From a virus: a stretch of 29,758 nt of DNA. Shown here one piece after another: positions 10,823-29,758 of the stretch. The notes below the pieces were generated by a model. The model worked only from the letters and a program-made list of their open reading frames with translations. It was not told where the DNA came from and did not search any database. Numbering within the stretch: the stretch's first letter is position 1; each line of letters begins with the position of its first letter. Location of the stretch: the IMG/VR virus record IMGVR_UViG_3300017748_000072, positions 1 to 29,758 of that record, one strand, 5' to 3'. The translations under genes were made by a program, and so were the position numbers.

Positions 10823-11000
10823 TTTTATACACCTCTATGTCCTTGATTTCTTCCAAAGAATATCCACTTGTTATTAAATTAGCAAGACTATTTAAATGTT
10901 CCTTACTTATAAAGGTCATTAAAATATCCACTATATCTTCTTTGGAAATTTGTTCATTACTAAAGTAGGACCTAATCGTCATAACCCTATCCTTATTCAT
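10815..11000 (-). CDS. Hypothetical small protein between helicase and exonuclease (61 aa)
   Basis: No family is recognised. The product looks all-helical and charged (YFSNEQISKEDIVDILMTF, then LANLITSGYSLEEIKDIEVY). The ATG at 11000 overlaps the stop of the candidate helicase; GGAGG encoded in the helicase's last codons lies about ten bases upstream. A second ATG at 10982 is also possible. Its stop overlaps the exonuclease start, so all three genes are probably translated in series. A small helicase or nuclease partner would fit the place, but nothing in the sequence shows that. Confidence 0.55.
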   Translation of the reverse strand: MNKDRVMTIRSYFSNEQISKEDIVDILMTFISKEHLNSLANLITSGYSLEEIKDIEVYKNE

Positions 11001-12543
11001 CGTTAGTCGCCCTCCTCATGTAGACCTTTTTATCTCTTTTTTCAACCTCAAAGAGATGTTCCGCTTTAGTCCAAAGTCGGTAGAATGTTGCTCTCGCTTT
11101 CTTTGTTTTCTTGAGGTAGGTTTGAATTACACTAGTTTTTGTAACCCATCCATCGGTAGCATTTGTCCTTTCTTTGGTTTCCTCATAGCAAGAAATTACA
11201 ATGTTCTCCACCTTTTTAGATTGAGTCCTAGTATCTCCGCCCTTGAGTTTCATACTGAACCAGTCCGTAATAGAATCAAAACTACTATCCGTAAGAATTT
11301 TTGCTTGGTCTACATGACGAGCCGTTACAATGGGAGACTTTTCCGAGATAGCACACAGGGTAGCGGCAATACCCATGTTGTTGATAGTATTCATTCGGAA
11401 TGAATCTAGTGCCTCATACATTTGAATCCCCTCGTAGTTGTCCATATGCCGACGCATACCTTTGTTAACAACCTTAAGACGATTGAGGGCTTCCTGCTGA
11501 AAAACAGTAATGGTTCTTTTATCCCCTGTTTCTTGGAGGCGGCGTTGAACCCATAGATAAATGTCGTAGAGTTGATTCGCATACTTCTCAAAGTCCAAGT
11601 GGTCTTCCTCTGTATCTCTAATGATACCGAAACTGTCCAAGTAAATATCCTCCATCTTTGCCTTCAACGAAGGAGCAATTTCCCTAACATATAACCACAT
11701 TCTTTGAAACACACCCTTTGTGAGAATAACTGCTTCCAACCCTTGTGGGGGAAGAGTGGTAGCCCATAGTGAACGCTGACAATCAACCACCAATGGTTCT
11801 TTCCAATCGGTTAGTCGTTTCTTAATTAGATGTGTGTCCGAATCTAACTTGTTCATAAACTTTTGAAACATCATCACCGTGTCTTGTTTATGCTGACTAT
11901 CCTTAAAAATACCCGAATGTTCAAATTCATCAAATGCAATAAAGCCCGAACCATACAACGCACCATTAACCGTGATGTCAATAAACTGTTGCTCAGGGTC
12001 TCCGTTATCATCTACTGGGTTATTCTCACCCGCTTCCCATCGTTCATTAAGTTGATTAGTCTTAATTGTTCCTAACAGGGCTTGGTCTGTAAAGGCATCC
12101 GGGTTTTCAAGAGTAAATTTATCTAATCCCGATAATCTACCCCTTATGTTTTTACCAGTAATTTCTGCAAATTCATCGGACATGGGGTATTCGTTAACTA
12201 GTGTGAACAAATGCTCCCATGTAGGTTGTAAGAAATCAAACATCGTTGTCTTACCTGTTCTAGCCGTTTGAATCCAACAGAAATGAATTCGTGTATCAAG
12301 GGGAGTCCCAAGGACCGCCACCCTAACACAATTCTTTAATATCTGCCCAAGTGTTACAAAATACGACATAGCGGCTGGATAGTCGTTATAAACTGAATAC
12401 TTCGTAACTCCTTCTATCCAATTTAGTGCCGTTTTTGGCAACTCTACTGCTTCTCTCTTTTCTATAATTTTTGCTACTTCTTCGTTCATGCTAACGAGAC
12501 TGTCGTATAATTCCCACTCGTCTACATCAAAATCTATGCTCAA
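10993..12543 (-). CDS. P-loop ATPase, candidate replicative helicase with C-terminal winged helix (516 aa)
   Basis: A P-loop-like segment, QTARTGKTT (residues 92-100), has the GKT core but Gln where the first Gly of Walker A is usual. Walker B is FIAFDEFEH (201-209) with D205 and E206. Downstream, KGVFQRMWLYVREI (near 280) resembles the arginine-bearing segment of DUF3987/D5-like helicases. The helical region MGIAATLCAISEKSPIVTA is like an AAA+ lid, and the C-terminus (RATFYRLWTKAEHLFEV) looks like a winged helix. It starts with TTG, preceded by GGAGG at seven bases and overlapping the XPF gene stop (TTGA). As the only helicase-like ATPase beside the primase in this replication operon it is the best candidate for unwinding the fork. 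The exact family is uncertain. Confidence 0.55.
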   Translation of the reverse strand: MSIDFDVDEWELYDSLVSMNEEVAKIIEKREAVELPKTALNWIEGVTKYSVYNDYPAAMSYFVTLGQILKNCVRVAVLGTPLDTRIHFCWIQTARTGKTTMFDFLQPTWEHLFTLVNEYPMSDEFAEITGKNIRGRLSGLDKFTLENPDAFTDQALLGTIKTNQLNERWEAGENNPVDDNGDPEQQFIDITVNGALYGSGFIAFDEFEHSGIFKDSQHKQDTVMMFQKFMNKLDSDTHLIKKRLTDWKEPLVVDCQRSLWATTLPPQGLEAVILTKGVFQRMWLYVREIAPSLKAKMEDIYLDSFGIIRDTEEDHLDFEKYANQLYDIYLWVQRRLQETGDKRTITVFQQEALNRLKVVNKGMRRHMDNYEGIQMYEALDSFRMNTINNMGIAATLCAISEKSPIVTARHVDQAKILTDSSFDSITDWFSMKLKGGDTRTQSKKVENIVISCYEETKERTNATDGWVTKTSVIQTYLKKTKKARATFYRLWTKAEHLFEVEKRDKKVYMRRATNDE

Positions 12544-13205
12544 TATGATACCTCCTTTTCTTCATTTAGTGCTTCTAATATACTAGAAGCGGTTATTTTT
12601 CCTATTTTTTCTATTTTTGTTAGTGATTTTACATCACTTGATGCAATTTTTGCTATTGACCCGTAAGTTTCAAGCAATAAATTGGCTTTTTCGTTTGTAA
12701 TGCCTTTAATTTGTGTCAAAATATCAATTCTAACATCATCTGTTCGTTTTTTCTTGGGCAACATTTTACTCAAGTCTACTTTTCTGTCCTTATTGTAAAA
12801 ACAAGCAACAATAAACTCGGCGGCATCCCTTGTGGCGGGAATCCACACGACTTTTGTATTAGTATTAAGAGTAATTGCTGACATAGCACCCACTAATCTT
12901 CGTTTCATCTTATTTATGACTGTTTTATCAAATGTTTTTAGGTGTGTTCCTAGTTCGGAAGCCTTTCCATGAATTAGAACAACAGTTTTACTGTAATTAT
13001 CTTCCATGTTGCTTATTTGGTTAAACATTCTTTTTTCCTTGACGGAGTAGTAGAAATCACTAACGGATTTTGCCTCAATGCAGATATTTTCACCCACATA
13101 GTCTCCAACCTCAATAAACCTTCTTTCCACAGGAACTCTAGCCAAGCCAGCAAAGTATTCCACATTAGAACACAATACAGAACTTTCTCTACTATCAATT
13201 ATCAT
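12540..13205 (-). CDS. XPF/ERCC4-family structure-specific nuclease with helix-hairpin-helix tail (221 aa)
   Basis: The N-terminal nuclease domain begins IIDSRE (D4, E7) and carries GDY at 34-36, followed by IEAKSVSDF at 43-51. The family consensus there is ERK-x3-D; here it is EAK, so the acidic residues and Lys are kept but Arg is Ala. The C-terminal part (LTQIKGITNEKANLLLETYG and KIEKIGKITASSIL) is a pair of helix-hairpin-helix DNA-binding motifs, as in archaeal XPF. It would cut branched or flapped DNA at forks or recombination intermediates. The frame opens further up, but GGAGG at 13213-13217 is seven bases before ATG 13205, so that start is chosen over GTG/ATG codons at 13247 and 13211. 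It overlaps the primase end by 11 bases. Family confidence is high. Confidence 0.82.
   Translation of the reverse strand: MIIDSRESSVLCSNVEYFAGLARVPVERRFIEVGDYVGENICIEAKSVSDFYYSVKEKRMFNQISNMEDNYSKTVVLIHGKASELGTHLKTFDKTVINKMKRRLVGAMSAITLNTNTKVVWIPATRDAAEFIVACFYNKDRKVDLSKMLPKKKRTDDVRIDILTQIKGITNEKANLLLETYGSIAKIASSDVKSLTKIEKIGKITASSILEALNEEKEVSY
12551..12555 (-). promoter_or_regulatory. Ribosome binding site that fixes the TTG start of the candidate helicase
   Basis: GGAGG lies seven bases before TTG (12543-12541), which overlaps the XPF stop as TTGA. No ATG is in a better position. The same seven-base spacing precedes many other starts in this operon. Confidence 0.7.
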
Positions 13206-14232
13206 CGCCATACCTCCAACACTTTCCAACGCACATTCCTTTATCAATTAGAGTCGCACACGAAGCCGACATAAACCTCTTATTCACCACATAGTTCACA
13301 AACTTTCTAGTAGTGGCTGGGTTGTAATCAATCCAAACATCTTCTTTACTAGCAATCTGTTCAACCTCAGCACAGATGATATTTGATATATCGCCCAAGA
13401 CTTCACCTTGTAATTCTCTTGGACTTCCTTCAATGCCCCGTTCAATCAAAACCATGTCGGAAATAATTTCATTATACCATTGAACGAGCAGATACCTAGC
13501 CTCATGTAGTGGGTTTTGAACCAAATTAGCCGAGGCCAAACAAGGAATCACCGGCAGGGTAGCGGGCGAGTCCACGCTTTCAATCTCAATGCCCGCCGCC
13601 TCAATTTCTTTTACCTTAGGCCATTCAAGCAATTGTTCTCCATAGTATTCATTTGCACCCGACCTTTGTTTCTTGCTCATTTCTAGGATGAAGTTTAAAT
13701 CATTCTTTAAGTCCGATTGCCTTAGGGGGATAGAAAACCTCTTTGCCCCCATGTGATAGGTATTTTGCACTCTTCGTAGGCGGGTTGTGTTGATAACCCG
13801 ATGGTCAAGTAGAGGAGACTTTTTGATTACATCATGGCAGATATTGAAAAATGCCTTGACTCTTCTCAAGTCCGAAGTCCTCTTACCATAGACGAAAATG
13901 TAAAAACCTCGTCCACTAAAAGCCATCCGATGTTTTAGATTTCTTTTTATCAACCAAGCATGAAGAGTCTTTAAGTCCTCATACGCTTCGTCCAAAGAAT
14001 CATTTCCATGAGCGTCAATATCCAAAAAGATTCTGTCAATAATAACTGAATGTTCAAGCCCCCGGTTGTCGGAAAACTCATCGTAATTATATACAGATGT
14101 ATATACATTCATCTTACCGTTGTAGATTTTAATATAGTCTAAAAATTCTTCTTTGTCGTGAACAACAAACCGCTTAGGCTGTCTAGCGTTCATGTGTGGG
14201 CTTCCTGCCCATACTTCTCTCGGAAAATACAT
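13195..14232 (-). CDS. Archaeo-eukaryotic primase with PriL-like iron-sulphur C-terminus (345 aa)
   Basis: The N-terminal half is an AEP catalytic domain. FLDIDAHG has the metal-binding D71 and D73, FSGRGFYIFV (105-114) corresponds to the nucleotide-binding motif, and LLDHRVINTTRLRRVQNTYH (141-160) gives the third acid D143 and the conserved R-L-x-R. From about residue 228 the sequence changes to a PriL-type pattern: IPCLAS with C231, HEARYLLVQW, then a C-terminal SCATLIDKGMCVGKC with C325, C334 and C338. Four such cysteines hold a 4Fe-4S cluster in archaeal and eukaryotic large primase subunits. The gene thus appears to join PriS and the PriL C-terminal domain in one chain that makes primers alone. 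GGTGA lies four bases before ATG 14232. The AEP call is firm; the fusion call is inferred from the motif pattern. Confidence 0.85.
   Translation of the reverse strand: MYFPREVWAGSPHMNARQPKRFVVHDKEEFLDYIKIYNGKMNVYTSVYNYDEFSDNRGLEHSVIIDRIFLDIDAHGNDSLDEAYEDLKTLHAWLIKRNLKHRMAFSGRGFYIFVYGKRTSDLRRVKAFFNICHDVIKKSPLLDHRVINTTRLRRVQNTYHMGAKRFSIPLRQSDLKNDLNFILEMSKKQRSGANEYYGEQLLEWPKVKEIEAAGIEIESVDSPATLPVIPCLASANLVQNPLHEARYLLVQWYNEIISDMVLIERGIEGSPRELQGEVLGDISNIICAEVEQIASKEDVWIDYNPATTRKFVNYVVNKRFMSASCATLIDKGMCVGKCWRYGDDN
13213..13217 (-). promoter_or_regulatory. Ribosome binding site deciding the XPF nuclease start
   Basis: GGAGG is one base from ATG 13211 but seven bases from ATG 13205. The latter is the spacing seen before other genes here, so 13205 is the likely start. 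The site lies inside the last codons of the primase gene. Confidence 0.65.
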
Positions 14233-14241
14233 TTTTTCACC

Positions 14242-14613
14242 TCATACTTGTTTAGTGTCCTTTTTAATCTGCTCTCGCAGTTCTTCCTTAGAAGGAAGTG
14301 TTTTTACTTTTTCTTTCTTTATTTTTTCCGGAAGGACAACCGGCTTAATATTCATTTCAATCTTGGCTGAATCTAAATCACCTACAATTAATTCTGTCAA
14401 GTGTTCAATATGAAAGGTGTAGAAAGCATCCTCAATTTCCTTTCTCAGTTCATCACTCACAAAATTAGCCATAATATCAAGAGTATATTTCTCTTTACTA
14501 ATTATGTTTCCCAATGTTTGTTCTATGTTGTAAATGTCCTTAACAGTCCACCCAAACTCTAGCACCTTTTTAACTAAATCATTCTTTACTTCTTCAAATT
14601 TTTTTCTATCCAT
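14242..14613 (-). CDS. Hypothetical charged helical protein (123 aa)
   Basis: No family is recognised. The product is rich in Lys and Glu and mostly helical (DRKKFEEVKNDLVKKVLEFG, then DELRKEIEDAFYTFHIEHL), with a basic, proline-containing tail (VLPEKIKKEKVKTLPSKEE). The open frame reaches back to 14703, but that would overlap the Cas4-like gene by 86 bases. GGTGAT, which overlaps the Cas4-like stop, stands just before ATG 14613, so that start is chosen. It lies between the nuclease and the primase and is probably coupled to both. A role in primer synthesis or end processing is only suggested by place. Confidence 0.6.
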   Translation of the reverse strand: MDRKKFEEVKNDLVKKVLEFGWTVKDIYNIEQTLGNIISKEKYTLDIMANFVSDELRKEIEDAFYTFHIEHLTELIVGDLDSAKIEMNIKPVVLPEKIKKEKVKTLPSKEELREQIKKDTKQV

Positions 14614-15988: not shown

Positions 15989-18421
15989 TTACCACCACTC
16001 CTCTAACCTTGACTGGTTAATGTCTTTTCTATAAAGAGATAAAGGCCACCCCATGCTCTCAAACACTAACGCAGATTTCTTAATAATTTCAGCCTCAGCA
16101 ATAAATTCCCAATCGGGTGCATAAGTGTTAGTAAGGTTCATTTGGTTGATACTTCTAAAAGCCAAGTATTCTGCTGACTTTGATTCGCCTTTCCATAGAT
16201 AACACTTCTCCTCTAGGTTGTGATTATTCATTTTGTAATAGTAATAAGAATCACCCTTGGTAATTCTGCCGCCTAGGTCTTGTTGGTTATAATATAGAAT
16301 ACCAGCCGTCCCACCAGCAACCATCTTATATTCGCTTAATGGTTTTCGTAGGCGGCTTCTCTTAACTAACCTCTTTATATCCACCTTGCCCTTGACAATA
16401 TCCTTATACCATTCATTGCAGTAGGCCACTATTTCGTCTTTATCGTTAAACAATGATACCTTCTTTAAAAGGTTTTCTTGAAACTCTTTCGCTACAGGGG
16501 TCTCATTACTTTTCTTCATCTCAAAACCCATTACGAAGAATTTATCCTCATCTAAAAAGGACCCGTCTTTCCAAGAAAGCCAGCCGCAATATCGGTTCTT
16601 TTTCTTTGACAGGAAAAACTTAGAAGCAAACTTTTCAAATTCTAACTCAACAGGCTCACGAAAAACATCCTTTGAAATGTAGTCGTTAAGTTTTTCACGA
16701 AGTTCCAGCGCATCATCAACATCTCTAACCTTGATAAAAACAGAATCCGTATGGCCGTAGATAACTTCGTAGCCTAAGTCTTGTGCCTTAAAAGCCGTCA
16801 TTCTCATGGCCCTGCGAGCAGAAGCCGTAATTGATTTAGCCATATCCATGTCTGCCCAACCGTAGCCATCCTTTGCTAGAATACCGTAGAATGCATTGAC
16901 AACTCGCTTAGTAGCCATCTGTGCTGAATCCCACTTTTGGTATTCTTCCTCCGTAGTTGCTTCCGAGCGTAGTTTCTTGTAAGAATCTCTCATTTCCATC
17001 AGTTCCTTAACCGCTTGGGGCAATACACCTTCACCGTCCTTGCTAAAATGAATATTCGGACGGCCCGAATACGGTCTTAGGTTCTTTGGGGTTTCCCACC
17101 AAACAGCATACCCATCACGGGTTTTACTTTCCCACGAGATATTCATTGAAGCCATCATTGACGGGTATAGAGATTTGAAGTCAAAAATAGCCACATTCTC
17201 ATGTTGTCCGTAAGTCTTTTCCTCATTGGGGTCCATAACGAAAGCCGCTTCAAACTTCTCCTTTGAACCTTTCAGTCCGGTAGGAGGAACCCAATCAGCC
17301 TTCTTCATAAAATACACGCCAGCCATCTGTGAATTGTGATAAGTGTTTTCAAATGGACAACCAATCAAGCGTTGTAGGGCTAACTGATTCTCACTAACAT
17401 TGAGTTTTTCATCAATGTCCACACACAATTTTACATCTATTCGTGCATATTCCAAGTAAGTGTCCGTGTCTTCAAGCCAAGCCCTTTCGTAAAACTCGTT
17501 GTCTTGGAACTTAGCAGAAACAACCTTACCATCATTCTCAAGAACCAACTTAGAACAATCATCCAACTTCAAAGAAGGTAGAGTTCCCATTTGTGAATCA
17601 GTCCACAAACGCTCAAATCTATCCATCAAGCAAAAGGTCAAACGACCCTTAATTGGTTGGCCGCTATTATGGTAGTTTTCTACTTTAAGGTTCCACCCAA
17701 CAGGTTCACCACCAGCATAACGCCTTGAAACATTCTTGATTTCCCCATAGGGAGACATAAGCGTAGGGTTAATATTCAATTCACACATACGAGAAATAAC
17801 TTTCGGTATGTCAAAACCAAGCAAATACCACCCAATAATCATGTCGGGGTCTTGCTCTTGCATTAAGCGAATAAACGCATAAAGCATATCAGTTTCATTG
17901 TCATACACTTCAAGCCATTCCTGTTCCTTGTGAATAACTCTTTCAGCAAACCAAGTCATTACAGTAGGTTTCTGTGTGTAGTTATCGTAAATACTCAGCA
18001 CCGTAATTTTCCCATCGTGTTCTCCACCCACTTGAGTTTCAATATCAAAATACCACTTGCGTAGGTTGTATTCGGGAATCTCGTAATCCGAATCAATACA
18101 CCAAAGCCTAGCCGCATCCACATCACCTTGATAGGTTCTCTCAGTTTTGTGGATTTCCTGCATAATATTGTATCTATCGTAGGGGTTCTCGTAGTAATAC
18201 TTTACGAGAGGAGTTCCTTCCAAGTTTTTACGGTTAGTGGGACTTCTAATAAAGTCCACCCTCCTACCTCTCGCAATTATACTTCTACTAATTTTAGTAT
18301 CAATGGGTAGATAAAAGTAGGGGCGGCATTCAAATGTTTCTTCCTTTCTTTCATCGTTAATATCCCGATAACGAAGTTTAATCCTGTGTTCGTTGTTCTC
18401 TTGAATCGTGTTTATCATCAT
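15989..18421 (-). CDS. polB: Family B DNA polymerase with proofreading exonuclease (about 810 aa)
   Basis: All main motifs are present (numbered from GTG 18430). Exo I is YFDIET (D129, E131), Exo II is GWYLLGFDIPK (D207), and Exo III is YARID (Y328, D332). Polymerase motif A is DFKSLYPS (D417), motif B is KRVVNAFYG (K508), and motif C is YGHTDS (D562). KKKNRY near 610 is the usual basic element beyond the palm. Both synthesis and proofreading should be active. In motif C the first Asp of the common YGDTDS is His. The 5' end has several starts: GTG 18430, ATG 18427, ATG 18421 and ATG 18418. GTGAT at 18430-18426 favours 18421 or 18418. The gene overlaps the small gene before it by about 44 bases. 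It is the replicative polymerase of the virus. Confidence 0.95.
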   Translation of the reverse strand: MMINTIQENNEHRIKLRYRDINDERKEETFECRPYFYLPIDTKISRSIIARGRRVDFIRSPTNRKNLEGTPLVKYYYENPYDRYNIMQEIHKTERTYQGDVDAARLWCIDSDYEIPEYNLRKWYFDIETQVGGEHDGKITVLSIYDNYTQKPTVMTWFAERVIHKEQEWLEVYDNETDMLYAFIRLMQEQDPDMIIGWYLLGFDIPKVISRMCELNINPTLMSPYGEIKNVSRRYAGGEPVGWNLKVENYHNSGQPIKGRLTFCLMDRFERLWTDSQMGTLPSLKLDDCSKLVLENDGKVVSAKFQDNEFYERAWLEDTDTYLEYARIDVKLCVDIDEKLNVSENQLALQRLIGCPFENTYHNSQMAGVYFMKKADWVPPTGLKGSKEKFEAAFVMDPNEEKTYGQHENVAIFDFKSLYPSMMASMNISWESKTRDGYAVWWETPKNLRPYSGRPNIHFSKDGEGVLPQAVKELMEMRDSYKKLRSEATTEEEYQKWDSAQMATKRVVNAFYGILAKDGYGWADMDMAKSITASARRAMRMTAFKAQDLGYEVIYGHTDSVFIKVRDVDDALELREKLNDYISKDVFREPVELEFEKFASKFFLSKKKNRYCGWLSWKDGSFLDEDKFFVMGFEMKKSNETPVAKEFQENLLKKVSLFNDKDEIVAYCNEWYKDIVKGKVDIKRLVKRSRLRKPLSEYKMVAGGTAGILYYNQQDLGGRITKGDSYYYYKMNNHNLEEKCYLWKGESKSAEYLAFRSINQMNLTNTYAPDWEFIAEAEIIKKSALVFESMGWPLSLYRKDINQSRLEEWW

Positions 18422-18590
18422 TTTCATCACTCAGTATTTCAATCTCAATGTCGTTTTCTCTTAGTTCATACTGCATTTGGTTTTGAATGTAGTGAATAAG
18501 GTGTTGTTTTAGTTCCTTAGCGGAGGTATCTCGCCAATACCACCCACCCCTCACTAAGAGGTTTAGTTTAAATTTAGGACCATCACTCAT
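18378..18590 (-). CDS. Hypothetical small protein overlapping the polymerase start (70 aa)
   Basis: No family is recognised. The sequence starts with a beta-like segment (FKLNLLVRGGWYW), continues with a helix (AKELKQHLIHYIQNQM), and ends in a strongly acidic, polar tail (IEIEILSDENDDKHD). Its ATG overlaps the MazG-like gene's end, with GAGGG upstream. Its last 40-50 bases also encode the start of DNA polymerase B in another frame, which may couple their translation. The acidic tail is partly fixed by that second reading. Confidence 0.55.
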   Translation of the reverse strand: MSDGPKFKLNLLVRGGWYWRDTSAKELKQHLIHYIQNQMQYELRENDIEIEILSDENDDKHDSREQRTQD

Positions 18591-22699: not shown

Positions 22700-23629
22700 T
22701 CACTTCCTTTTATTTTTCATAATTTGGGAGCAGAACCAAGCAATTAACACTTTAGGCGTCACGCTTCGGCTCCTCCACTCCATTTCTCCTACCGCTGATA
22801 TGCACATAAACCTTGTGGTATTGTCCACATCAATTTCCATAACGGCTTGTAGGAGTTTATTACATATATCCTTTACACTTTGTCCATTCTTTACTAGCGT
22901 TGTCAAGTAGTTCATACCCATCGGGTCGCCACTCAACATTTGTAGTAGAGCATTTTTGTAGAACTTTAGTTTTGCTTCCATAATTTCATCAAGACTTGTA
23001 TCGGAAAAAATACACGCCTGAACCTCATTAATAGCACGACGAAAATCTCCATCGCAACTTTCTACAATTTTTTGGACTAAATTTTGCTTACTTTCATCTA
23101 CTTCTAATACATTATCCCCGGACATTAGTCTTAGAAGTCGCTCAACCTGCACCTCATCGGGCAACGGTTGAAACAGATAGTTTGCACACCTTGACTTCAA
23201 GGCCTCTTCTACACCGTAGGAGTCGTTGCAGGTAATAACGAAGGTGGTATTTACTGCTCGTTCCATAGTGCGTTTTAATGCTCGCTGGGCATCCTTGGTC
23301 ATTCCCTCTATTTCATCAAGTAAGACAAATTTCATTTTATTTCCACTAACAGAACTAGTGGTAAGAAAATTGTAAATAGTCTCACGCACGGTTTCTAGTT
23401 TGCGGTCTTGGCTAGCATTAATCTCAAGAAAATTAGTCTTGAAATCCTCGCCCAAGAACAGTTTAGCCATAACTAAAGCGGCTGTTGTTTTACCAGTTCC
23501 CGGCCTACCATGTAATAGTAGGTTAGGCATATGGTTTTTCTCAACCCATCGGTGAGCGTCTTCTGTAAATCTGTGTTGTCCTATAATTTCTTCAATTGTT
23601 GTTGGTCTAAATTCTTCTGTCCAATTCAT
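22700..23629 (-). CDS. rfcS: Replication factor C small subunit, AAA+ clamp loader (309 aa)
   Basis: Near-complete RFC motifs are present. The N-terminus is WTEEFRPTTIEEIIGQ (RFC box II), Walker A is GRPGTGKT (41-48), and Walker B is FVLLDEIEGM (101-110), with DEIE in place of the common DEAD. Sensor 1 is FVITCND (130-136) and the arginine finger motif is SRC (146-148). The helical collar domain follows. It would form the ring that opens PCNA with ATP and places it on primed DNA. No canonical RFC large subunit is seen in the window, so the small subunit may work alone, with a host subunit, or with the P-loop protein at 26104-26934. The start overlaps the chaperonin's end by 23 bases, with GAGGG upstream. 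Confidence 0.93.
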   Translation of the reverse strand: MNWTEEFRPTTIEEIIGQHRFTEDAHRWVEKNHMPNLLLHGRPGTGKTTAALVMAKLFLGEDFKTNFLEINASQDRKLETVRETIYNFLTTSSVSGNKMKFVLLDEIEGMTKDAQRALKRTMERAVNTTFVITCNDSYGVEEALKSRCANYLFQPLPDEVQVERLLRLMSGDNVLEVDESKQNLVQKIVESCDGDFRRAINEVQACIFSDTSLDEIMEAKLKFYKNALLQMLSGDPMGMNYLTTLVKNGQSVKDICNKLLQAVMEIDVDNTTRFMCISAVGEMEWRSRSVTPKVLIAWFCSQIMKNKRK

Positions 23630-25178
23630 GTCGTTCCCTCATAATCAATCTCTTAGCCGTTAACACATAACCCGCTACTGACACGGCACTTCGTAGCGAT
23701 GAACACACAACCCCAGCGGGGTCAATTACCCTGTATTCGGGGGCATGTAAATACCATTCGTCTTTGATTCCATCGTAGGCATATTCTTGAGAAAGGTTGT
23801 GCATTACATTCTCAAGGGTGGTGTCTTCGCCCACACAATTCTTATACAGGGTATTAAAAACTGCAAATAAAGCATTTCTAAACCCGATACGAATATCTAA
23901 TTTAATATCGGGGTTATTGTCAATATTATAGTATTTTAACAAAGACAAACCCGAACCCCATGTGTAGCCTGTTTGAATGGCCGAGCGAACAGCATTCAGC
24001 GAATCGTCTAGTCTATCCTTTTTGTTGTGGATTTCCTGTTCCGACTCCCCGTGGATTTTAATAATACCAGCCATTCCATTCAACTTACCCATTCTAGCCA
24101 AGTTCTTTTTCTTGTGGAATTCTGTTTCAGCCATAGCCGCATCCTCAACAATTTGTTCACATCTCTTAGCGACTCTTTCGGGATTACTGGGCTGACCAAT
24201 AAATAGTGTGCTTGAGGCGTTGATAACTAACGACTCACATTCACCTAAATGTTCAAGTCGGGCGTGGCGAATATCCTCATCTAATGCATTAATGAAATAA
24301 TGACAATTAAGGAATGTAGCCAAGTCTCCCAATTTAAGTCCCGTCCAAACAGAAATGTCCTCGGCCTTAGCAATAGAAGCATCAATAGAACCATTCATAC
24401 TATTCACCACGAATTGATTCAAAGCAATAGGACTAATGGACTTAAGCACCATTAGTAGTGGGCGTTTGTTCTCCTTTGCTAATTCCAAGGCGGGTAGGAT
24501 TTCTTCAAAGTCTTTCACCTCTTGGTCGCTAACCAACACAAGAGGGTTTTCCATTCGCCTCTCCTTTCCATTGACCCGTTCCAAAACATTGTGAATATAC
24601 CCAGCCGATGATTCAAAACCCTTTACAATTTCTATTTCGTCCTTTCCCGAGTGAGAAGGTTCAACAGTAATAACTCCTTCCATTCCAATAGAACGAATAA
24701 TTTTGCTAATGCGTAGGGCCATCTCTTCGTCGTTGTTTGCACTAATCAAGGCGATAGCATAAATGTTATCAAGTGTAATTTCCGACGCGTTAAACGAAAT
24801 CTCGGATTCTAGAGTCTGCATTAACTTGGTGAACTCGCTTCTAATTAGCGTTGGGTTATATCCCTGTTCAATTAGTTTCATTCCCTGCTTAATCAACGCA
24901 TTAGCCAACACCGACGCAGAAGTAGTTCCATCACCGGACTTTTCCTGCGCTCTTTTGCAGACCTCAATTAGTAGTTTTGCACCAACCATTTCTTCCTTTG
25001 TAAGGGAAATGTTCCGAGCAATTGTAACGCCATCGTTGATAATCAACGGGGGTAAATCATCGGGTCTGTCAATAATAACAGAATTTCTTGCTGGTCCCAA
25101 TGTTACACCGACTACATCGGCTACTGCTTCAATTCCCTTCACTAGTGTTTTATTTGTTTTTTCTTCGTTGTAAATCAT
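23607..25178 (-). CDS. groL: GroEL-type group I chaperonin (523 aa)
   Basis: Alignment by eye with E. coli GroEL is clear along the whole chain. VVGVTLGPARNSVIID matches VKVTLGPKGRNVVLD, INDGVTIARNI matches TKDGVSVAREI, and GDGTTSASVLA (82-92) is the nucleotide-binding loop. ISANNDEEM and GMEGVITVE follow, then the apical LVLVSDQEV and LPALELAKENKRPLLMV. The second equatorial half has RMGKLNGMAGIIKI, KKDRLDDSL and RVIDPAGVVCSSLRSAVSVAG. These are group I features; archaeal thermosomes (group II) have a built-in lid and different sequences. The Gly-Gly-Met tail of GroEL is absent. A GroES-like gene lies two genes upstream. It would make a folding cage, probably for viral capsid or replication proteins. 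The ATG has GGGGG seven bases before it and overlaps the preceding stop as ATGA. Confidence 0.92.
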   Translation of the reverse strand: MIYNEEKTNKTLVKGIEAVADVVGVTLGPARNSVIIDRPDDLPPLIINDGVTIARNISLTKEEMVGAKLLIEVCKRAQEKSGDGTTSASVLANALIKQGMKLIEQGYNPTLIRSEFTKLMQTLESEISFNASEITLDNIYAIALISANNDEEMALRISKIIRSIGMEGVITVEPSHSGKDEIEIVKGFESSAGYIHNVLERVNGKERRMENPLVLVSDQEVKDFEEILPALELAKENKRPLLMVLKSISPIALNQFVVNSMNGSIDASIAKAEDISVWTGLKLGDLATFLNCHYFINALDEDIRHARLEHLGECESLVINASSTLFIGQPSNPERVAKRCEQIVEDAAMAETEFHKKKNLARMGKLNGMAGIIKIHGESEQEIHNKKDRLDDSLNAVRSAIQTGYTWGSGLSLLKYYNIDNNPDIKLDIRIGFRNALFAVFNTLYKNCVGEDTTLENVMHNLSQEYAYDGIKDEWYLHAPEYRVIDPAGVVCSSLRSAVSVAGYVLTAKRLIMRERHELDRRI

Positions 25179-28453: not shown

Positions 28454-28863
28454 TTGTTATACTCTCCTTTGTTGTAAAAAATCTTAGGAGGAATGCCCCC
28501 TAAGTTATATGTTATCCAAAATTGACCTTGGCCGACTGATATTTCTAGTCCGGCCCAGCCTTGCTTTACAGTTCCTAAACGCTTTACATTAATCATATTT
28601 CCATACATGTGATTATACAACATACTCACATGATTTAAATTGTCGTGCAGATATTGAACCACTAATGGTTCCTGCACATCTACCCATTCCTCTTCCGAGA
28701 AGTATTCTCCTGTCCAATCGCAAACTCTACATTTGTTTCCTTCACAAATAGGGCAAAGATACCTTCTGTCATAAACAGGAAACCTAACTGTGCTTAGTCT
28801 AGGGGAAACCTGTCCGTCTGCACGATTTTGGTCATTATTTCTTTGTCGTATTTCTTCTCCCAT
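28441..28863 (-). CDS. Zinc-ribbon protein with C-terminal beta-rich domain (140 aa)
   Basis: YLCPICEGNKCRVCDWTG (35-52) has four cysteines in C-x2-C-x4-C-x2-C form, a compact zinc site. The C-terminal domain (about 90-140: VKRLGTVKQGWAGLEISVGQ, then FWITYNLGGIPPKIFY) is beta-rich and not recognised. ATG 28863 has GGAG eight bases before it but lies 70 bases inside the end of the JAMM protease gene, an unusually long overlap that suggests the two are made together. It might feed a substrate to, or be a target of, the protease; that is speculation from position. Confidence 0.6.
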   Translation of the reverse strand: MGEEIRQRNNDQNRADGQVSPRLSTVRFPVYDRRYLCPICEGNKCRVCDWTGEYFSEEEWVDVQEPLVVQYLHDNLNHVSMLYNHMYGNMINVKRLGTVKQGWAGLEISVGQGQFWITYNLGGIPPKIFYNKGEYNKWLA

Positions 28864-29336
28864 ATTAATCTCTCCTCACCACCTAGAACGATTGCTTGTT
28901 GTAGGATGGGTCGCCATGTTCTTAAAGTTCTGCGGTCAGTTCCCGACCAAAAGGCGACCCCGAAGGGATGGGTATGAATCCAACACTTCAAGGGAAGTTT
29001 CATTCCCGAAACCATAACTCCTCCGTAGTCCACCAATCCCGGTGAGCCGGAATTCATAAACAACTTATCGTTAGCATCAACAATAACGCTAACTTCTAGT
29101 CCTCCTAAAGTTTCAACAGATGCCTTCCAAATCTCATCCAAAAACATGGGACTACTGGTATCAGCGATTCCGCTAAAAATCATATGTCTCCATGTTTGGT
29201 TAATAGGTTCCTGCCAAACTTCGGCAGGAACATTAGTCCATCGTTCATTCAAATTACCTACGGGTTCCTTGATATTATCTCCGAGGAAAAACCCGTGGTA
29301 GTCGTTCTCAATTTTTTCTTCCATTTCTTCTTTCAT
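28794..29336 (-). CDS. JAMM/MPN+ metalloprotease, deubiquitinase-like (180 aa)
   Basis: The zinc motif is exact: H-x-H-P-x6-S-x2-D in WIHTHPFGVAFWSGTD (H121, H123, S131, D134 from ATG 29336). The upstream Glu is probably E75 in SVETLGGLEV, 46 residues before the first His, as in archaeal JAMM proteins. These enzymes cut isopeptide bonds and remove ubiquitin-like proteins such as archaeal SAMPs; some phage tail and antiphage proteins also use this fold. The gene is in the replication unit, not among tail genes, so action on a host ubiquitin-like modifier is an appealing idea but unproved. The frame opens at TTG 29366; ATG 29336 after AAGGAG is preferred. Confidence 0.8.
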   Translation of the reverse strand: MKEEMEEKIENDYHGFFLGDNIKEPVGNLNERWTNVPAEVWQEPINQTWRHMIFSGIADTSSPMFLDEIWKASVETLGGLEVSVIVDANDKLFMNSGSPGLVDYGGVMVSGMKLPLKCWIHTHPFGVAFWSGTDRRTLRTWRPILQQAIVLGGEERLIWEKKYDKEIMTKIVQTDRFPLD

Positions 29337-29349
29337 ATTTTTTTTCTCC

Positions 29350-29758
29350 TTAAATAAAGTTCGCAATTACTCCTAATGCTAAGACACTTGCAAGTATTCC
29401 TAGTCTTTTTAAATTTTGCAGGGGGTCTACATCCAAAATAGTTCCTGTAATTAGATTTTCCATTAGGAAACTTTTATCGTCTATTGTATAACTTTTCCAT
29501 TCTAAAACACTATCAAGTGTTGGCAAACAGAAATGATACCAATAACCATCCGTTACAATAAATCTATAACCACTAATGTTAGGAACATGTGCTAAGAAAT
29601 CCTCTACTTGCTGAATACCCTTATGGGTTTGGTTCGGTGCTTCTGCTTCAATTAACCACTTAACAGGATGCTTATGACCTTTGAAAGAAACAGTTAGCAA
29701 ATAGTCTAAATATTTATTCTTATTATCCACCGTTGTAAATTGAGGTTCACGAATATAT
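29350..29758 (-). CDS. Protein with C-terminal membrane helix, 5' end outside window
   Basis: The frame is open from the stop at 29350 to the right edge. GTG 29730 has no SD, and upstream codons (YIREPQFTTVDNK) read smoothly into the domain, so the true start is probably beyond the window. The visible part has LDYLLTVSFKGHKHPVKW, LIEAEAPNQTHKGIQQV and GYRFIVTDGYWYHF, an order that recalls the PD-(D/E)XK nuclease fold seen in HsdR N-termini, but with EAE where E-x-K is needed. A membrane helix (LGILASVLALGVIANFI) ends the chain. A degenerate or unrelated fold is possible. It is the first visible gene of the minus-strand unit here. Confidence 0.5.
   Translation of the reverse strand, partial: YIREPQFTTVDNKNKYLDYLLTVSFKGHKHPVKWLIEAEAPNQTHKGIQQVEDFLAHVPNISGYRFIVTDGYWYHFCLPTLDSVLEWKSYTIDDKSFLMENLITGTILDVDPLQNLKRLGILASVLALGVIANFI

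Follow-up and report, generated by a model that had tools for sequence, protein, structure and literature searches.

Can one compact viral protein combine the two halves of a DNA primase that in cells are usually separate proteins? The question is raised by an open reading frame (ORF) in IMG/VR virus record IMGVR_UViG_3300017748_000072, a stretch of 29,758 nucleotides (positions 1 to 29,758 of the record) that is referred to here as the window. The initial annotation had read the product of this ORF as PriS fused to the iron-sulphur (Fe-S) domain of PriL, and that reading is supported by a PriS fold in the N-terminal part, by matches of PriL profiles to relatives and haloviral homologs, by a model of the C-terminal domain (CTD) that comes closest to PriX and then, faintly, to human PriL-CTD, and by an H-x2-R motif and four cysteines in register with PriL. 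The claim that a single chain joins PriS and PriL parts holds too, but for the PriL-CTD only, the N-terminal domain of PriL being absent. We consider it very probable that a magrovirus-like tailed virus uses this protein as its replicative primase and that a flexible linker connects its PriS-type domain to a PriL-CTD with a probable 4Fe-4S cluster; the initiating nucleoside triphosphate (NTP) would be bound at H243/R246 and the primer handed off to the viral family B DNA polymerase (PolB). As predicted from sequence and structure models, one enzyme of a marine archaeal virus would thus make the starter strands for DNA copying.

The plus strand across positions 13195-14232 is crowded with stop codons, and the primase ORF reads from the minus strand. 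Relatives of its product were obtained from one scan of viral contigs, which gave 20, and from a profile scan that returned 367 relative-encoding stretches, 80 of the 367 being kept; the family members examined span 326-353 amino acids. Conservation is expressed throughout as counts over 118 distinct aligned homologs, haloviral sequences included. The features of the ORF, including those of its archaeo-eukaryotic primase (AEP) domain, are as follows.

13195 to 14232, minus strand: single-chain primase ORF, 345 codons plus stop, with an ATG start codon at 14232
14238 to 14243, minus strand: Shine-Dalgarno-like GAGGTG before the primase start, which overlaps the upstream gene's stop
13612 to 14232, minus strand: AEP/PriS-like catalytic domain, residues 1-207 (AlphaFold2 model)
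14014 to 14022, minus strand: motif I, D71-x-D73, metal ligands (each 117/118, the remaining one a gap)
13900 to 13902, minus strand: Tyr111 (SGRGF-Y), at the position of the nucleotide-binding His of motif II (homolog alignment; role of the motif from PMC5862659)
13804 to 13806, minus strand: motif III, D143 (118/118)
13753 to 13773, minus strand: motif IV, R154 (118/118) and H160, members 2 and 3 of the nucleotide-binding triad (triad as in PMC5862659)
13567 to 13611, minus strand: linker, residues 208-222 (model confidence below 50 at residues 210-220)
13198 to 13566, minus strand: PriL-CTD-like helical domain, residues 223-345 (profiles, model and homolog alignment)
13540 to 13542, minus strand: C231, proposed Fe-S ligand 1, whose counterpart in the alignment with human p58 is C287 (118/118)
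13495 to 13506, minus strand: H243-x2-R246, proposed site for the triphosphate of the initiating NTP, in register with H303-x2-R306 of human PriL (118/118)
13219 to 13260, minus strand: C325-x8-C334-x3-C338, proposed Fe-S ligands 2-4 (C325 117/118, C334 and C338 116/118; conservation and PriL profile matches in relatives)

All residues singled out by the initial annotation, namely D71, D73, D143, the IPCL motif with C231, the helix HEARYLLVQW, SCATLIDKGMC with C325 and C334, and GKC with C338, were found at the positions that it had given.

An AlphaFold2 model of the full-length primase, built with 42 relatives, has a mean predicted local distance difference test score (pLDDT) of 83.5 and a predicted template modelling score (pTM) of 0.61. 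When 1000 chains were compared with it using VIA, the top rows were PriS of Pyrococcus furiosus (1g71), P. horikoshii and P. abyssi, with Z scores of 14.0, 13.7 and 13.4 over 179-182 residues and root mean square deviations (rmsd) of 2.6-3.1 (179 residues and 2.6 for P. furiosus). Prim-PolC, LigD-Pol and human PriS trail by about 1-2 Z units, a distance at which the nearest AEP is not decidable from Z alone. Since this list is led by Pyrococcus PriS with other AEPs close behind, the modelled N-terminal domain (residues ~1-207) is an AEP domain of PriS fold. Foldseek likewise returned an AEP match to the primase model with a probability of 1.00, PriS models match several relatives weakly (TIGR00335, best 0.0017), and among the PHROGs the window protein matches only phrog_16345 (primase) at residues 33-205 and phrog_9660 (function unknown) at residues 293-339.

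For the C-terminal part, the evidence consists of modest scores. The NCBIfam PriL models NF002589, NF002591 and NF002588 match 8, 6 and 2 of 42 family members, respectively, with E-values from 7.6e-4 to 0.15 (1.8e-4 for haloviral homologs), which are weak singly and all far below the curated cut-offs. In the members inspected, the alignment covers the cysteine end (residues 302-338 on profile positions 287-329 in relative L028, residues 265-336 in L040), and the haloviral homologs are matched across the whole CTD (residues 283-363 in HVTV-2, E-value 1.8e-4). These homologs match the marine family, with an hhalign E-value of 2.8e-17 over 281 columns between marine and Druskaviridae primases and matches of the A2 hidden Markov model to haloviral ORFs at 1e-12 to 1e-16. 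Modelled alone (pLDDT 75.9, pTM 0.73), the CTD has as its best PDB match PriX, the Sulfolobus substitute for PriL-CTD, which is ranked first by Foldseek at an E-value of 1.4 and aligned by VIA over 87 residues with a Z score of 6.6; the human 4Fe-4S domain (3q36) appears in the VIA list at Z 3.2, with model residues 3-125 placed on p58 residues 271-391. The first cysteine of human PriL is C287, from which H303 and R306 were counted, and H243-x2-R246 stands four residues nearer to C231 than H303-x2-R306 does to C287. Human R306, yeast R355 and PriX R72 are essential for primer initiation (PMC5700102). Between the AEP domain and the CTD there are only about 15 linker residues, and therefore the PriL N-terminal domain, which holds PriS, is absent. 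Because the modest scores agree with each other and the cysteines are in register, the assignment of residues ~223-345 as a predicted PriL-type CTD is supported, and this domain most likely holds a 4Fe-4S cluster.

Several observations weigh against this assignment as a whole. Single-sequence scans of the window protein with Pfam and NCBIfam gave no AEP, PriS or PriL match, relatives matching weakly, and the His of motif II is replaced by Tyr. For the CTD, a VIA score such as that to PriX is middling for a helical domain, with no chain at Z 8; the tail that carries C334 and C338 is modelled at low pLDDT; and C338 lies nearer to C334 (x3) than the fourth cysteine does to the third in the archaeal PriL motif. 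CTD and combined CTD profiles run against PDB sequences retrieved no PriL chain, the top row of the combined profile being an unrelated helical surface protein; the haloviral profile did not retrieve PriL from the same sequences either, and the full-length protein, in phmmer and profile searches of them, gave one weak LigD-like match and no PriL.

Apart from a few gaps, D71, D73, D143, R151, R154, N157, C231, N240, P241, H243, R246, W300, D302, C325, C334 and C338 are invariant, the exceptions at D71, D73, C325, C334 and C338 being gaps in sequences cut by contig ends. Another cysteine of the window protein, C132, does vary and is retained in only 32 of the 118 homologs, so the conservation is specific to the four named ones. 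When residues 206-345 were shuffled 100,000 times, the joint pattern P-C-x-H-x2-R-x-[YF]-x-C-x-C-x-C never arose, and it matches 113 of 1,941 ORFs from viral loci, all apparently family members or haloviral homologs; as the pattern was loosened to fit the family, this test is descriptive.

That the four cysteines bind zinc, making the protein a primase with a zinc domain like the C-terminal one of human PrimPol or that of UL52-type primases, is in our judgement unlikely. The type of metal cannot be read from the sequence, a clustered C-x8-C-x3-C at the extreme C-terminus would suit zinc, and the C-terminal zinc motif of human PrimPol is required for priming (PMC10415149). Against zinc, however, the first ligand lies 94 residues upstream, within a helical domain that follows the PriL order P-C...H-x2-R...[YF]-x-C-x8-C-x-C, PriL profiles match relatives at the cysteine region, and the fold search leads to PriX and PriL-CTD. 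Less probable still is a PriCT- or PriX-like helical bundle that starts primers without a metal cluster and keeps its cysteines for structural reasons only. PriX, the closest match of the CTD model, has no cluster, and the Fe-S cluster of Sulfolobus solfataricus is dispensable for priming (PMC5700102), but none of the four cysteines is lost across 118 distinct sequences that range from marine viruses to haloviruses at a CTD identity of only 20-30%, a constancy hard to account for unless a metal is bound. A repair polymerase of the LigD/Prim-PolC kind, whose structures come close behind PriS at Z 12-13, is the least credible alternative given the PriL-type CTD with its initiation residues, the fixed place of the gene beside PolB, clamp and clamp loader, and the annotation of the haloviral homologs as primases.

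A replicative primase with a PriL-type CTD remains the preferred reading, and its active site varies within the family, a point that the initial annotation did not mention. The PrimHYQ family also has Tyr in motif II, which makes Tyr111 a variation on a known theme. The nucleotide-binding triad as defined by Kazlauskas and colleagues consists of the motif-II His, an Arg or Lys of motif IV and a His or Asn of motif IV, and the motif-II His varies in some plasmid and virus AEP families (PMC5862659), so that Tyr111 does not exclude the protein from the superfamily. In the window protein the triad is Y111-R154-H160, which is not the H-R-H triad of archaeal PriS; H-R-H is found in 13 relatives. Position 111 is His in 95 and Tyr in 22 of the 118 homologs, and position 160 is Asn in 79, His in 32 and Arg in 7, giving the combinations HRN (75), YRH (19), HRH (13), HRR (7, in haloviruses) and YRN (3). 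In a quick tree of 67 sequences, computed with positions 111 and 160 omitted, position 111 takes two changes and position 160 four. Tyr occupies position 111 in the clade of the window protein and in L040, L057 and L059; most relatives have His, which recurs within a nested subclade. The simplest reading of these sequences is that His would have changed to Tyr once, at the base of the clade, and back to His in one subclade.

The primase gene is part of a minus-strand replication cluster in the 29.8-kb fragment, which comprises a DnaQ-like exonuclease, a 516-residue ATPase, an ERCC4 nuclease, the primase, a short gene, a PD-(D/E)XK nuclease, an HNH nuclease, PolB, a sliding-clamp-like gene, a Sak4-like ATPase, the RFC small subunit and GroEL. 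Three of its members are listed here.

12540 to 13247, minus strand: ERCC4-type nuclease with helix-hairpin-helix, next downstream and overlapping the end of the primase ORF (Pfam ERCC4 5e-16; neighbour in 17 of 17 marine-type contigs)
10993 to 12543, minus strand: 516-residue ATPase, two genes downstream of the primase (kept in the 17 marine contigs)
15989 to 18430, minus strand: family B DNA polymerase of the same cluster (Pfam DNA_pol_B 6e-45; synteny)

The order PolB, PD-(D/E)XK nuclease, primase, ERCC4 nuclease, ATPase, exonuclease is essentially kept in the 17 marine-type contigs, the exonuclease of contig L102 lying beyond the compared stretch and the HNH gene being present in closer relatives only. 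Contigs L102 and L103 come from metagenome-assembled genomes (MAGs) named Altibacter and Maricaulis and carry the same viral replication cluster; because their viral gene order is the same, we read them not as evidence of the host but, most likely, as mis-binned viral contigs in public MAGs. Two orthologs of the 516-residue ATPase match DUF3987 (3.3e-5 and 1.9e-4), a domain that Kazlauskas and colleagues (PMC5862659) describe as a (putative) helicase joined to AEP primases in fusion proteins, and the ATPase is a reasonable candidate for the partner helicase. Of 16 viral records searched for MCM, a single match came up, below threshold. Neither HVTV-2 nor any of 15 further viral records (77-98 kb) yielded a separate PriL gene, a result that excludes only a PriL of cellular type because the Pfam PriL model also misses the fused CTD. 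The gene set of the window matches that published for magroviruses, the viruses of marine Poseidoniales archaea, and the virus appears to be a magrovirus-like marine archaeal tailed virus, a likeness that is one of gene set and not a family assignment.

Three further features of the window were observed alongside. A Group I (GroEL-type) chaperonin at 23607-25178 directly adjoins the RFC small subunit, as expected for magroviruses. Motif C of PolB reads YGHTDS, with His in place of the first Asp of the DTD that most family B polymerases have there, as judged from its residues only. A 190-residue protein at 28794-29366, with a JAMM-like HTHPFGVAFWSGTD motif and a weak Prok-JAB match (E-value 0.008), is a possible JAB/MPN metalloprotease.

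In the mechanism that we propose, H243 and R246 of the CTD would hold the first nucleotide by its triphosphate, and the linker (residues 208-222) would let the CTD swing this nucleotide to the AEP active site, formed by D71, D73, D143, R154 and H160 with Tyr111 replacing the usual His, where the first dinucleotide would form. The primer would then pass to the viral family B polymerase, which has its own clamp and clamp loader. The peptide tether would take over the job of the PriL N-terminal domain, which in cells joins the subunits.

There is continuing debate over how PriL-CTD passes the first nucleotide on to PriS, and the large assemblies of the eukaryotic enzyme make its study slow. A chain of some 340 residues with catalytic and initiation domains only, encoded in hundreds of viral contigs and with relatives in cultured haloviruses, could offer a compact test system for the roles of the Fe-S cluster and the triad. 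We tentatively suggest, at somewhat less than even confidence, that the examined members of this widespread marine viral family are among the smallest known chains to combine the functions of PriS and a 4Fe-4S PriL-CTD, joined directly without a PriL N-terminal domain, and that the family, with its motif-II change from His to Tyr and back and its shifts in motif IV, is a naturally occurring minimal model for the eukaryotic primase.

The initial annotation had set the single chain against the two subunits of cells, but a one-chain primase is not unusual: haloviral records already annotate this fusion, and PolpTN2 and Nanoarchaeum equitans provide further cases. A tblastn search of annotated phage records with the window protein found nothing; the haloviruses were reached via a divergent relative. 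Homologs are encoded by the cultured Haloarcula viruses HVTV-2 and HCTV-1, and the fused primase of haloarchaeal tailed viruses of the Druskaviridae (HVTV-2, HVTV-1, HCTV-1, HCTV-5) is among the closest known counterparts. The records of HVTV-2 (gp100, UBF22907.1) and HRTV-27 describe the product as "eukaryotic/archaeal primase small subunit (N-terminal region) and large subunit (C-terminal region)", whereas those of HVTV-1 and HCTV-1 label the same gene "hypothetical protein"; gp62 of HRTV-27 (Hafunaviridae) was matched over the AEP part only. The window protein shares with HVTV-2, HCTV-1 and their near relatives the two-domain order, the catalytic acids, the four cysteines and an NPxHxxR motif. 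The HVTV-2 protein differs in its length of 382 residues, in the spacing of its third and fourth cysteines (x8 versus x3) and in its triad (H-R-R versus Y-R-H), and Druskaviridae and marine sequences are ~20-30% identical in the CTD. Among the magroviruses, the International Committee on Taxonomy of Viruses (ICTV) profiles of Aoguangviridae and Apasviridae list an "Archaeo-eukaryotic DNA primase" with PolB, clamp, clamp loader and GroEL, as in the window; the fused CTD goes unmentioned there.

PolpTN2 of the Thermococcus nautili plasmid pTN2 (PMC3973330) also joins an AEP domain to a PriL-like region that carries four cysteines, its brown colour is consistent with Fe-S (PMC3973330), and its motif-II His is likewise replaced, by Gln where the window protein has Tyr. 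It differs in having 923 residues, PriCT-1, both PriL domains and a winged helix, and it makes DNA primers; with AEP and PriL-CTD only, the window protein falls outside the definition of the PolpTN2 family (AEP, PriCT-1, PriL and winged helix, with Gln in motif II). NEQ395 of N. equitans is a monomeric primase with both domains, cellular and confined to one species, and is likened here by its described domain content. The cellular PriS-PriL and PriSLX enzymes share the PriS fold, the PriL-CTD signature and, in human PriL, R306 and H303 in register with R246 and H243, but consist of two or three chains and retain the PriL N-terminal domain. The idea of PriS and PriL in one chain is thus not new, being preceded by the haloviral annotations, PolpTN2 and N. 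equitans; the interest of the window protein lies in its small size, its lack of the PriL N-terminal domain, its wide marine viral distribution and the natural His/Tyr series that its relatives provide.
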